From: a virus
Reading direction: 5' to 3' (one strand)
Virus record (IMG/VR): IMGVR_UViG_3300032151_000007
Coordinates: 1-24,780 of that record
Length of the DNA: 24,780 bases
Part shown: piece by piece, positions 1,328 to 11,301 of the stretch
Numbering within the stretch: the stretch's first letter is position 1
Layout: every line of letters starts with the position of its first letter
Made by a program: the position numbers and the translations under genes
The notes under the pieces: model-generated
Told to the model about the DNA's origin: nothing
What the model saw: the letters and a program-made list of their open reading frames with translations, nothing else
Databases searched by the model: none

Positions 1328-1353
1328 AAAAAGGCGGAACATAATGTCCCGCC
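1328..1353 (-). terminator. Intrinsic terminator after the 78-aa gene
   Basis: On the minus strand, GGCGGGACAT pairs with ATGTTCCGCC (1353-1333). This is nearly a perfect palindrome, with one G-T pair, and forms a GC-rich hairpin followed directly by TTTTTATATT. It lies between the stop of the 78-aa gene (1364) and the start of the 69-aa gene (1322), close enough to the latter to act as an attenuator. Confidence 0.8.
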
Positions 1354-1363
1354 CGTGTTTGTT

Positions 1364-1600
1364 TTATCTTGCGATTGCTTTTGCTAAATATGTAAAAAAG
1401 TGCATTATGTCACCGTTTAAAAAATCGATTTTAATTAATGTGTTTTTGATTTGTTTTTGTTGGTGCGTTGGTGCGATTGCAATGTGTTCAACAATTACGC
1501 CCAATGGAATAAAGTTTGTTCCGCTTTGTCCTTCAACTTCGATCATTGTTTCAATGTTGATGTTTTTTTCTGAAATTAGAGTGTTTAAATAGTTTGTCAT
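1364..1600 (-). CDS. Hypothetical protein in a single-gene unit (78 aa)
   Basis: This is a 78-aa acidic to neutral protein (MTNYLNTLISEKNINIETM at the start, LIKIDFLNGDIMHFFTYLAKAI near the end). I do not recognise a family with a known function. The gene has its own Bacteroidota-type promoter (1648-1676), an A-rich leader immediately before the ATG, and its own hairpin terminator (1328-1353), making it a self-contained, moron-like unit. The same promoter layout precedes the 118-aa gene at 10779, so the two are probably coregulated. An opposite-strand open frame over the same bases lacks such signals and is a shadow. A role in the early phase of infection is inference from the promoter type. 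Confidence 0.8.
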   Translation of the reverse strand: MTNYLNTLISEKNINIETMIEVEGQSGTNFIPLGVIVEHIAIAPTHQQKQIKNTLIKIDFLNGDIMHFFTYLAKAIAR

Positions 1601-1605
1601 TTTCT

Positions 1606-1621
1606 TTGGTTTTTTTTGGTT
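1606..1621 (-). repeat. 16-bp A-rich leader element, copy 1
   Basis: AACCAAAAAAAACCAA on the minus strand ends five bases before the ATG of the 78-aa gene. An identical copy lies four bases before the ATG of the 118-aa gene (10784-10799). A copy with one A fewer precedes the 48-aa gene (1100-1114). It occupies the place where a Shine-Dalgarno sequence would be. Confidence 0.65.
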
Positions 1622-1633
1622 GGCAATATTGCC
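1622..1633. promoter_or_regulatory. 12-bp palindrome in the 78-aa gene leader
   Basis: GGCAATATTGCC is a perfect 12-bp palindrome between the -7 box (1655-1648) and the start codon at 1600. It could be an operator for a dimeric repressor or a small hairpin in the leader. The otherwise similar leader of the 118-aa gene lacks it. Confidence 0.4.
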
Positions 1634-1647
1634 GTTGTTTCGTGGTG

Positions 1648-1676
1648 TAAAGATAAACGTTTTTTTATTAAATCAA
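1648..1676 (-). promoter_or_regulatory. Promoter of the 78-aa gene
   Basis: Minus strand TTG (1676-1674), 18 bases, TATCTTTA (1655-1648). This fits the Bacteroidota -33/-7 pattern apart from the last base of the -7 box. The TTG lies inside an 18-bp repeat shared with the promoter at 10831-10859. The leader to the ATG at 1600 is about 40 bases. Confidence 0.6.
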
Positions 1677-1687
1677 ACTTTTTTTCA
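1670..1687 (-). repeat. 18-bp promoter-linked direct repeat, copy 1
   Basis: TGAAAAAAAGTTTGATTT on the minus strand is identical, in the same orientation, to 10865-10882. Both copies lie just upstream of a TATCTTTA box. Here 14 bases separate repeat and box; at the other site it is 26, about one helical turn more. This would suit a shared activator or repressor site. Confidence 0.6.
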
Positions 1688-9233: not shown

Positions 9234-9692
9234 TTACGCTTTACGCTTTAACGTTGAAACCATTGCGTTAAAAAATGCCGCGTTTGGATCAACCGTTGTG
9301 TTTTCAATTATACTTGGATCGCCGTTTGGTGTTACGTCCGTTTTTCCGGCTTTTATTTTTGAAATTGTCGCCGTCAATTCTTCAATTTCGGAATTTGCAA
9401 TCGCCAACGCTTTTGCTTCTGCGTCCGCTTCTTCTTCTTCTTCTTCTTTTACTTCTTCCGTCATTCCCATTTTTTCTTCAATGTCATGGATTGCGTTTTC
9501 TAAATTGTCAACCCTTGATTTTAATTCTTCATAAGTTAACGCCCAATCCGTGTCTTCTGCGGTTGATTCGTCTTCGTCGCCTTCTGCATTTTTTACAACG
9601 CCCAACATTGATTTGATTTTTCCAATTAAACTTTCGTCGTTCGAAACTTCTTTTGTTTCAACAACATTTTCATTTTGCGTATTTTCCGCCAT
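9234..9692 (-). CDS. Probable nested scaffold protein (internal start)
   Basis: Inside the protease gene an in-frame ATG at 9692 would give a 152-aa protein starting MAENTQNENVVE, equal to residues 210-361 of the full product. The 20-odd bases before it (TTAATAAAACAAAAACAAACG) copy the A-rich leader found before ordinary genes of this phage and read as a poorly conserved linker in the long protein (INKTKTNV). The product is acidic and coiled-coil-forming, as scaffolds are. The arrangement equals phage lambda gpC/Nu3, where the scaffold is made from an internal start in the protease gene. That this start is used is an inference. Confidence 0.5.
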   Translation of the reverse strand: MAENTQNENVVETKEVSNDESLIGKIKSMLGVVKNAEGDEDESTAEDTDWALTYEELKSRVDNLENAIHDIEEKMGMTEEVKEEEEEEADAEAKALAIANSEIEELTATISKIKAGKTDVTPNGDPSIIENTTVDPNAAFFNAMVSTLKRKA

Positions 9693-10319
9693 AACGTTTG
9701 TTTTTGTTTTATTAATTATTTGATTTATTTTTTCGCTTGTAATATTTTCGAATTTTGAAATATCGTAATTGTTTTCCACCTTGATCGATTGCGTGATTCC
9801 GCTAATTAAACCCAATTCCATTGTTTCTTCTGAATTGAACCATGTTTCAACGTCCATTAAATTAATATAATGATCGGAATCATGTTTTGATTTTGACGCA
9901 TATATAGACGCAATTTCATTTCGAATTTTATCCAAAATGTTTGCGGTTTTTCTTAATTCGTTTGCGTCGCCACCGGACATTGCAAATGGATTGTGAATCA
10001 TAAACAAAGAATTTTCCGCCATTTCGATTGTGTCGCCGGCCATTGCAATAACGGACGCAATCGACGCCGCAATTCCTTCGACTTTCGTTGTGACTTTTTT
10101 AGAATGGTTTTTTAATGCGTTGTAAATTGCCAATCCGTCAAAAACCGAACCACCCAATGAATTGATGTGAACGTCAATGTTTTTATCTTTGATCGTTTTT
10201 AATTCGTCAATAAATGATTTTGCGTTTACGTCGTGACTTCCGACTTCCGAATAAATATACACGTCCGCCGTGTCGGATTTTGCGTTGTTTTGAATTTCGA
10301 ACCAATTTGAATTTGCCAT
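9234..10319 (-). CDS. ClpP-type prohead protease with C-terminal scaffold domain
   Basis: This 361-aa protein combines two parts. Residues 1 to about 180 are a ClpP/SppA-like serine protease, with Ser86 in GIAASIASV, His109 in FMIHNPF and a likely acid at Asp156 in MDVETWF. The GGS of INSLGGSVFDG fits the oxyanion region. It should cut capsid assembly proteins during head maturation. Residues about 210-361 are acidic and coiled-coil (a run of Glu after MTEEVK, then IEELTATISKI), as in scaffolds. The frame is open 20 codons further upstream, but that part covers a terminator and promoter; the ATG at 10319 gives the normal start, five bases after a TATTTTTG box. The capsid gene follows. Confidence 0.9.
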   Translation of the reverse strand: MANSNWFEIQNNAKSDTADVYIYSEVGSHDVNAKSFIDELKTIKDKNIDVHINSLGGSVFDGLAIYNALKNHSKKVTTKVEGIAASIASVIAMAGDTIEMAENSLFMIHNPFAMSGGDANELRKTANILDKIRNEIASIYASKSKHDSDHYINLMDVETWFNSEETMELGLISGITQSIKVENNYDISKFENITSEKINQIINKTKTNVMAENTQNENVVETKEVSNDESLIGKIKSMLGVVKNAEGDEDESTAEDTDWALTYEELKSRVDNLENAIHDIEEKMGMTEEVKEEEEEEADAEAKALAIANSEIEELTATISKIKAGKTDVTPNGDPSIIENTTVDPNAAFFNAMVSTLKRKA

Positions 10320-10324
10320 TGCGA

Positions 10325-10332
10325 CAAAAATA
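10325..10332 (-). promoter_or_regulatory. -7 box directly before the prohead protease
   Basis: TATTTTTG on the minus strand ends five bases before the ATG at 10319, the same layout as before the amidase, the 137-aa gene and the 89-aa gene. The upstream octamer at the 19-base distance (10359-10352, TTTCGTAA) matches the TTGCGACG of the two strong sites at four of eight positions. It would start the capsid transcript just after the terminator at 10370-10395. Confidence 0.5.
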
Positions 10333-10369: not shown

Positions 10370-10395
10370 AAAAAAACACGGGTGTTTGCCCGTGT
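10370..10395 (-). terminator. Intrinsic terminator after the 118-aa gene
   Basis: On the minus strand, ACACGGG (10395-10389), a six-base loop, CCCGTGT (10382-10376) and seven T in a row. It lies between the 118-aa gene and the protease and shows that the longest open frame of the protease gene is not its real start. Confidence 0.85.
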
Positions 10396-10422: not shown

Positions 10423-10779
10423 TTAATTTTGACTTGGGTTTAATGACATGATTGTAATTGATTTGTCGGACGCATTTCTTATTTCCGCGTTTTCTTGTAA
10501 CCAATCAATCAATGAAACTTCGTTTCCGTCTTCATTTGTGAATGTGAATGTTTTTTCGTCAATGTCGATTGTTAATTCGTTCATTTTGTTTTCACTCCAT
10601 TGATCAAACATAAACATTTCGTCCGTTGCCCATTTGTTGTGGATAAAAATTAATTCTAACAAACGATTCATTTGTTGTTTTTGTTCGATTCTAACCGAAT
10701 GTGCTAAATTACTAAAATCAAATTTTGATTCCTTTAAGGTTACGAACGGGTTTCTTGGTGTGATTGGTAAATTTTTCAT
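10423..10779 (-). CDS. Hypothetical protein in a single-gene unit (118 aa)
   Basis: This 118-aa soluble protein starts MKNLPITPRNPFVTLKESKF. The middle is helical and aromatic (EQKQQMNRLLELIFIHNKW, then FMFDQWSENKMNEL), and a beta hairpin follows (LTIDIDEKTFTFTNEDGNEVSL). It ends SLNPSQN. I recognise no family. It has its own promoter (10831-10859), a leader with the 16-bp A-rich element, and its own terminator (10370-10395), although it sits between late structural genes. The promoter unit is shared with the 78-aa gene at 1600. This makes it moron-like, probably expressed at a different time or level from the virion genes on either side. Function unknown; a host-takeover or superinfection role would be speculation. 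Confidence 0.8.
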   Translation of the reverse strand: MKNLPITPRNPFVTLKESKFDFSNLAHSVRIEQKQQMNRLLELIFIHNKWATDEMFMFDQWSENKMNELTIDIDEKTFTFTNEDGNEVSLIDWLQENAEIRNASDKSITIMSLNPSQN

Positions 10780-10783
10780 TTTG

Positions 10784-10799
10784 TTGGTTTTTTTTGGTT
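10784..10799 (-). repeat. 16-bp A-rich leader element, copy 2
   Basis: AACCAAAAAAAACCAA on the minus strand, identical to 1606-1621 and ending four bases before the ATG at 10779. Both leaders also share GAAACAA upstream of it. Confidence 0.65.
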
Positions 10800-10830
10800 T
10801 GTTTCAAAGGTTTGTCCCTTGATTCTGACG

Positions 10831-10859
10831 TAAAGATACAATTAAAACCCGTTTGGCAA
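10831..10859 (-). promoter_or_regulatory. Promoter of the 118-aa gene
   Basis: Minus strand TTG (10859-10857), 18 bases, TATCTTTA (10838-10831), the same boxes and spacing as at 1648-1676. The box is about 50 bases from the ATG at 10779. It lies in the 138-base gap after the 127-aa gene. Confidence 0.6.
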
Positions 10860-10864
10860 TGGAA

Positions 10865-10882
10865 AAATCAAACTTTTTTTCA
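10865..10882 (-). repeat. 18-bp promoter-linked direct repeat, copy 2
   Basis: Identical to 1670-1687 in sequence and orientation. A second AAACTTTTTTT (plus strand) follows 20 bases further on, at 10890-10900, and a shorter AAACTTT lies at 1701-1707 beyond copy 1, so each site may hold two half-sites. Confidence 0.6.
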
Positions 10883-10917
10883 CTTTTTTAAACTTTTTTT
10901 GCTTTTACCCTAGTAAA

Positions 10918-11301
10918 TCAGTAATTAAAAACGCTTTTTTTCTTTGTTTTTTTGTTGTTTTCCTTGATTTTCACCTTATAATCACCCAAAATTGTTTCGT
11001 TTTTGGTGAATTTTGGACGGTATTTGTAGACAATTCCCTGAATTTGACGATCCGACAAATCGTATTTAATAGACAAATCCATGAACGTGTGTGTGACATG
11101 GCCTTTGTTTTGTCTTAATATAGTGTCAAAATCTAATATGATTAAATAATTCCGAATTCGTGTTGGTTCGCATAAACCTTTTTCGGTTAAATGATAAACA
11201 ACGTCTTTTGGTGTTGCGTATTCACCAAAACGCGTTTGGACTTCGTTCCAAATAATATCGATAAAATCGACAACAAATTTTATTTTATTTGGTTTTGCCA
11301 T
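10918..11301 (-). CDS. Possible helix-turn-helix regulator (127 aa)
   Basis: This 127-aa basic protein starts MAKPNKIKFVVDFIDIIWNEV. Near residues 70-95, a segment FMDLSIKYDLSDRQIQGIVYKYRPKF looks like a helix-turn-helix, with DLSDRQIQGIV as turn and recognition helix. The C-terminus is very Lys-rich (KENNKKTKKKS). It resembles small putative DNA-binding proteins of Bacteroidota phages, but no exact family is recognised. It overlaps the upstream 89-aa gene by 22 bases and is followed by the promoter region of the 118-aa gene. Being encoded among late tail genes it could control head or lysis gene expression; that is inference from position. Confidence 0.65.
   Translation of the reverse strand: MAKPNKIKFVVDFIDIIWNEVQTRFGEYATPKDVVYHLTEKGLCEPTRIRNYLIILDFDTILRQNKGHVTHTFMDLSIKYDLSDRQIQGIVYKYRPKFTKNETILGDYKVKIKENNKKTKKKSVFNY

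Follow-up and report, generated by a model that had tools for sequence, protein, structure and literature searches.

The window analysed here is a whole IMG/VR record, from a marine virus, of 24,780 bases with its genes on the minus strand, and it is probably a fragment of the virus. The genes include those for a terminase, large virion proteins, a head protease, a portal, an amidase, and an exonuclease. The terminase is 47% identical to that of Flavobacterium phage 11b and 45% to that of Cellulophaga phage phi10:1, its best neighbours, and a host belonging to Flavobacteriia is therefore likely. Scanning with the portal led to a large family of environmental contigs, from which 19 contigs were assembled by joining pieces; several of these circularise at about 30-32 kb and some may be incomplete. 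A fragment with 100% identity to the window (G001) was used in addition to these 19 joined contigs, and the gene slots described below were compared among 20 related contigs from phages of about 31 kb.

Two short genes of the window, coding for 78 and 118 amino acids, had been proposed to form twin moron-like units under one regulatory cassette. All the strings, genes, and end hairpins on which this proposal was based were recovered by exact search, every string on the minus strand. The features of the two units and of their borders are as follows.

1328-1353, minus: hairpin resembling a terminator, downstream of the 78-aa gene; its T-run is not kept in relatives
1364-1600, minus: 78-aa gene of the phrog_6004 family (unit 1, slot 2), from PHROG match and homologues
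1606-1621 (unit 1) and 10784-10799 (unit 2), minus: A-rich leader AACCAAAAAAAACCAA before the ATG, exact search
1622-1633, minus: 5'UTR hairpin of unit 1, short variant GGCA-ATAT-TGCC, from fold and covariance model
1648-1655 (unit 1) and 10831-10838 (unit 2), minus: -7 element TATCTTTA, exact search
1670-1687 and 10865-10882, minus: 18-mer TGAAAAAAAGTTTGATTT, exact search
1674-1676, minus: -33 TTG of unit 1, inside the 18-mer at 1670-1687
1709-1718 and 10909-10918, opposite orientations: 10-mer CCTAGTAAAT/ATTTACTAGG, exact search
1710-1723, no strand assigned: dyad TTTAACCTAGTAAA of unit 1, centre 61.5 bp before the -7 element
1733-2977, minus: exonuclease gene, upstream border of slot 2
9234-10319, minus: head maturation protease gene, downstream border of slot 1
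10325-10332, minus: TATTTTTG, -7 element in the promoter of the protease itself; mRNA predicted to be leaderless
10370-10395, minus: terminator closing slot 1, GACACGGGC hairpin and T-run, conserved in relatives
10423-10779, minus: 118-aa gene, putative moron (unit 2, slot 1); no relatives found
10804-10822, minus: 5'UTR hairpin of unit 2, TCAAGGG-ACAAA-CCTTTGA, from fold, covariation, and covariance model
10857-10859, minus: -33 TTG of unit 2
10904-10917, no strand assigned: dyad TTTACTAGGGTAAA of unit 2, centre 72.5 bp before the -7 element
10918-11301, minus: conserved 127-aa gene, upstream border of slot 1

Signals shared by the two units

In both units, the TTG stands 18 nt ahead of TATCTTTA. 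The identical 18-mer, cited in the original prediction as a mark of common regulation, is present at both sites but by itself does not exceed the chance level: a direct repeat of at least 18 nt arose in 39 of 200 dinucleotide shuffles (about 20%), and two further 18-nt repeats exist within the window. It is also out of register with the promoter. The TTTG of the 18-mer serves as the -33 element in unit 1, and the copy in unit 2 is located 11 bp further upstream, 26 bp before the -7 element, where a different TTG is used. The evidence for a shared cassette thus consists of the joint arrangement of the signals and its recurrence in relatives. The 10-mer described as occurring in opposite orientations does so, but it actually represents one half of TTTAC-N4-GTAAA, an inverted repeat whose spacer is asymmetric. 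In addition, a hairpin in the 5'UTR, lying between promoter and leader, is present in both units and had been overlooked. The order of the cassette is the dyad TTTAC-N4-GTAAA, the promoter TTG-N18-TATCTTTA, the 5'UTR hairpin, the A-rich leader, and the gene, and the conservation of the dyad, promoter, hairpin, and leader supports shared regulation of the two units as proposed.

The cassette promoter TTG-N18-TATCTTTR is close to the Flavobacterium sigma-A consensus, of which the -7 box TAnnTTTG is located at -12 to -5 (PMC9723704). The -33 TTG and the -7 TATCTTTR are the same as in the promoters of Flavobacteria and at the expected spacing (PMC9723704), with either TATCTTTA or TATCTTTG preceded by a TTG at N18 or near. 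The differences are that the phage box, as in the window, ends in A at the position of G in the consensus, and that a dyad is added upstream and a hairpin downstream. The assignment of these promoters to a host sigma factor agrees with the consensus of Flavobacteria, and host sigma-A would transcribe the cassettes early or independently of the late genes. The transcription starts used below were inferred from the same Flavobacterium paper (PMC9723704); the literature was also searched for promoters of related phages and yielded nothing useful.

The A-rich leader recurs ahead of many non-virion genes in the relatives, and all 41 cassettes of the leader type are oriented on the gene strand. In F. 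johnsoniae, where Shine-Dalgarno sequences are lacking, translation is favoured by upstream adenines (PMC6847099), and the leader of the cassette would likewise drive translation without a Shine-Dalgarno sequence.

Gene content of the two slots

Slot 1, located between the 127-aa gene and the head protease gene, is empty in 12 of the 20 contigs, where the two border genes adjoin and the protease is preceded by its own promoter; G048 carries no cargo but has a terminator between the border genes. In the remaining eight contigs the slot is filled, behind promoters, with unrelated cargo: 118 aa in the window, 72 aa in G031, 132+56 aa in G002 and G003, 178 aa in G032 and G034, 59+51+60 aa in G036, and 94 aa plus a C5 DNA methyltransferase (PF00145, 2.4e-48) in G047. 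The window, G031, G002, and G003 have almost the same regulatory block despite the unrelated cargo, and the promoters of G036 and G047 are without parts of the cassette. The closing terminator, a GC-rich hairpin followed by a T-run, is common to six of the eight filled contigs (the window, G031, G002, G003, G032, and G034). On the portal tree, at least two changes of occupancy are forced at this slot. As a side observation, an AAG trinucleotide tract lies inside the neighbouring head protease gene (window 9428-9448).

The 118-aa gene is thus inserted between genes that adjoin in relatives, is followed by its own terminator, and is preceded by its own promoter, TTG-N18-TATCTTTA, which is recognised by sequence only and is kept with other cargo. 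Its base composition (31.7% GC) is not shifted from that of the upstream gene (31.8%), an unusual composition being a usual but not obligatory trait of morons. Given the filled and empty sites, the swapped cargo, and the kept regulatory block, the 118-aa unit fits the working definition of a moron and, as judged from these comparisons, is a genuine moron-type insertion, an exchangeable gene with its own terminator.

No homologue of the 118-aa protein was found by pattern scan, tblastn, PHROGs, or NCBIfam. Weak matches to DrmMII and Endonuc_Holl were not credible, and a match in G017 was rejected, since part of its alignment falls on the N-terminal extension of a phrog_6004 homologue. The structure model of this protein is poor (pLDDT 52).

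Slot 2, after the exonuclease gene, gave a different pattern. A promoter of the same class directly follows the exonuclease in nearly every relative and is succeeded by variable genes, and a clear empty site was not seen among the relatives. The 78-aa gene occupies the slot in the window, G002, G003, G032, and G034, genes of 215+146 aa are present in G031, and in G049 and G035 the genes that follow include methyltransferases. Both of the proposed end hairpins exist, but the T-run after the 78-aa gene is confined to the window and the identical G001; relatives with this gene keep the GGGCGGG hairpin without the T-run, so that in these relatives unit 1 is unlikely to be transcribed in isolation. 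In relatives that reach past the window end, the same module goes on with a replication initiator gene and a gene resembling those of Holliday junction resolvases, and in complete relatives the cassette promoter and leader also precede genes of this module past the window end. Based on the presence of these two genes, slot 2 is better seen, at the level of gene order, as the head of an early module rather than as an insertion in late genes. The twin-moron proposal therefore holds for the 118-aa unit and only in part for the 78-aa unit, which is better described as the lead gene of an early or accessory module with a promoter of the same class. Methyltransferase-like genes are found in this module in G035, G049, and G048, with products matching PF01555 and PF00145 and an NPPY-motif protein without a Pfam match.

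The 78-aa protein matches the phrog_6004 profile over its full length (residues 2-77 of 78, E=1.5e-20), with no difference seen from the family. Homologues of phrog_6004, found in phages of hosts as different as Mycobacterium, Methylophilales, Vibrio, Leptospira, Tenacibaculum, and Escherichia, share an invariant E11 K12 and a KIDF-NG motif. The AlphaFold model of the 78-aa protein is confident (pLDDT 93); its fold had no match in PDB, and a search of BFVD returned one phage protein of 225 aa.

The 5'UTR hairpin and the upstream dyad

A typical cassette hairpin is composed of an 8 bp stem and a 5-nt loop. Of 29 UTRs, 21 form more stable folds than shuffled sequences (p<=0.05), including those of unit 1 (p=0.013, with an identical copy in G001) and unit 2 (p=0.017). 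In the alignment of hairpins from 20 cassettes, 91.3% of cells are paired, a percentage biased upward by the choice of these hairpins after the folds had been seen. Changes on both sides were found for all eight pairs. The covariation score was reached by none of 500 shuffles, a count that is not a probability since the aligned sequences are related; controls in which the partner was slid by one to three columns keep the relatedness and still fail, the covariation being at most 0.14 versus 0.58. A covariance model trained without unit 1 matched unit 1 at 1609-1655 (E=8e-4), and the match to unit 2 at 10787-10838 (E=7e-10) was obtained with unit 2 in the training set. A search of Rfam gave no match. 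Assuming a start 12 nt after the beginning of the -7 box, the stem begins at about +3 to +5, and the covariation argues for a real RNA stem near the 5' end; the variant of unit 1 is shorter and sits at about +11, at a greater distance from the predicted 5' end.

The position just downstream of the promoter could also be that of a DNA operator palindrome, bound by a repressor over the transcription start, and the GGCAATATTGCC form is indeed a perfect palindrome. An operator should keep its sequence, however, whereas here only the pairing is kept, with compensatory changes in all eight pairs and different stem sequences inside one genome, and an operator is therefore an unlikely account of the region. 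Within the interpretation as an RNA element, stem-loops at the 5' terminus that stabilise mRNA are known for ompA and papA (reviewed in PMC3997798), and the cassette hairpin resembles these in its closeness to the predicted 5' end, only a few nucleotides away. The likeness of the cassette hairpin concerns its predicted position; the hairpin would protect the mRNA. A mainly regulatory role, as the site of an RNA-binding protein or in the timing of translation, agrees with the ACRAA-like loop, for the most part conserved together with the geometry of the stem, but some cassettes carry a quite different hairpin, GGCA-ATNT-TGCC, instead, and we regard such a role as doubtful though deserving consideration beside mRNA protection.

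The dyad of unit 2 is located one helical turn further out than that of unit 1. Among non-redundant promoters, the dyad centre was found at -61.5/-62.5 in four (0.04 expected) and at -71.5 to -73.5 in three (0.05 expected), the cases being few and their relatedness controlled only partly; a dyad at fixed spacing is recognisable in part of the cassettes only. The clustering at positions one helical turn apart points to a protein acting from one DNA face, and suggests that a regulator acts at the dyad. A dimeric regulator would bind TTTAC-N4-GTAAA. A stricter scan with ACTCTAGTAAA detected promoters bearing the -33 element mostly at spacers of 53-57, with a few at 45 and 66-67, and is suggestive only, as related contigs repeat and some matches fall in coding DNA. 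The result hints at a regulator that a number of phage lineages have in common or that the host provides. ACTCTAGTAAA is present 53-57 bp before TATCTTTR promoters in contigs L317, L334, L342, L345, L360, and others. In the more distant phage contigs L006-L009, the phrog_6004 homologue is also preceded by the dyad of the cassettes (TTTACTAGAGTAAA, TTTACTCTAGTAAA, and close variants).

A broad scan of viral contigs for the dyad plus the -7 element was dominated by chance-like spacing. This outcome, the frequency of long repeats in shuffled sequences, and the commonness of A-rich leaders in this phylum would all be expected if the cassette were a chance product of AT-rich intergenic DNA and a common promoter of Flavobacteria, the genes being co-transcribed with their neighbours. 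Such an ordinary similarity is very improbable in view of the combined architecture conserved across the relatives, the fixed spacing of the dyad, the covarying hairpin, and the pattern of slot occupancy.

Late genes and a cassette class for accessory genes

Four genes of the window, among them those for the head protease and the amidase, are preceded by TATTTTTG, located 3-6 nt before the ATG and conserved in several relatives, which puts the predicted mRNA start within about two bases of the ATG. Besides the protease gene, these are the 137-aa gene (start at reverse-complement position 1352), the 89-aa gene (13232), and the amidase gene (20609). Leaderless mRNAs represent only 5.5% in F. psychrophilum (PMC9723704). 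The predicted difference in mRNA start supports, and does not prove, that the cassette units and the late genes are expressed by different rules.

The two units had also been proposed as possibly lysogenic genes. Classical morons occur in temperate phages, and the presence of an own promoter and terminator is in line with lysogenic-conversion morons expressed from a prophage. Neither a tyrosine integrase (PF00589) nor a serine recombinase (PF00239) was found in the 19 family contigs, some of which may be incomplete, although control genomes gave matches, and neither an integrase nor a repressor was found among ten early-region proteins of G031. The lysogenic reading is thus unsupported and quite improbable, even though lysogeny may also be reached by other routes, and early or independent accessory expression fits better.

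Altogether, we consider it rather likely that both units belong to one phage-wide class of cassette, set apart from the virion genes, through which accessory and early genes are expressed; the evidence, all at the sequence level, includes the architecture, the empty and filled sites, the swapping of cargo, the covariation of the hairpin, and the position of the dyad. The slot genes are probably exchangeable extra genes, predicted to be switched on apart from the genes for the virus particle. The DNA methyltransferases in the same slots of relatives lend indirect support to the proposal of cargo linked to host takeover or defence, and the cargo would help against host defences or in takeover.

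A wider model is offered tentatively, as possible rather than probable: an accessory-gene regulon of marine Bacteroidota phages, in which a dimeric regulator would act at helically phased dyads upstream of sigma-A promoters, the transcripts would carry a covarying hairpin at their 5' end followed by an A-rich leader, any cargo of a slot would receive the same early and stabilised expression, and some late genes would be leaderless. To our knowledge, little is known of gene regulation in uncultured marine Bacteroidota phages. If the model is true, the cassette would be a signature for accessory, probably counter-defence, genes in these phages, and any gene following a cassette in a slot would be a candidate accessory gene. 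The model predicts a hairpin at the 5' end of the mRNA and a regulator, and suggests that accessory genes and some late genes are split by the type of mRNA 5' end, leadered with a hairpin versus leaderless.

With respect to known systems, slot 1 is similar to phage morons of the lambdoid type, as defined in PMC4378225, in that one or a few genes with their own promoter and terminator are located between genes adjoining in relatives. It differs in that no integrase was found in the family and no clear shift in base composition was detected, and in that the promoter, hairpin, and leader are family-wide and also serve a second module at its lead gene. A moron block, ORFs 8-10, is likewise known among the late genes of SPP1, a lytic phage of Bacillus, in which accessory genes bracketed by transcription signals interrupt the head and packaging genes (PMC6316719), but the phage, host, and genes are unrelated and the SPP1 block also holds a replication origin. 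Morons are a known kind of element, and the shared regulatory cassette with an RNA hairpin is the new part.
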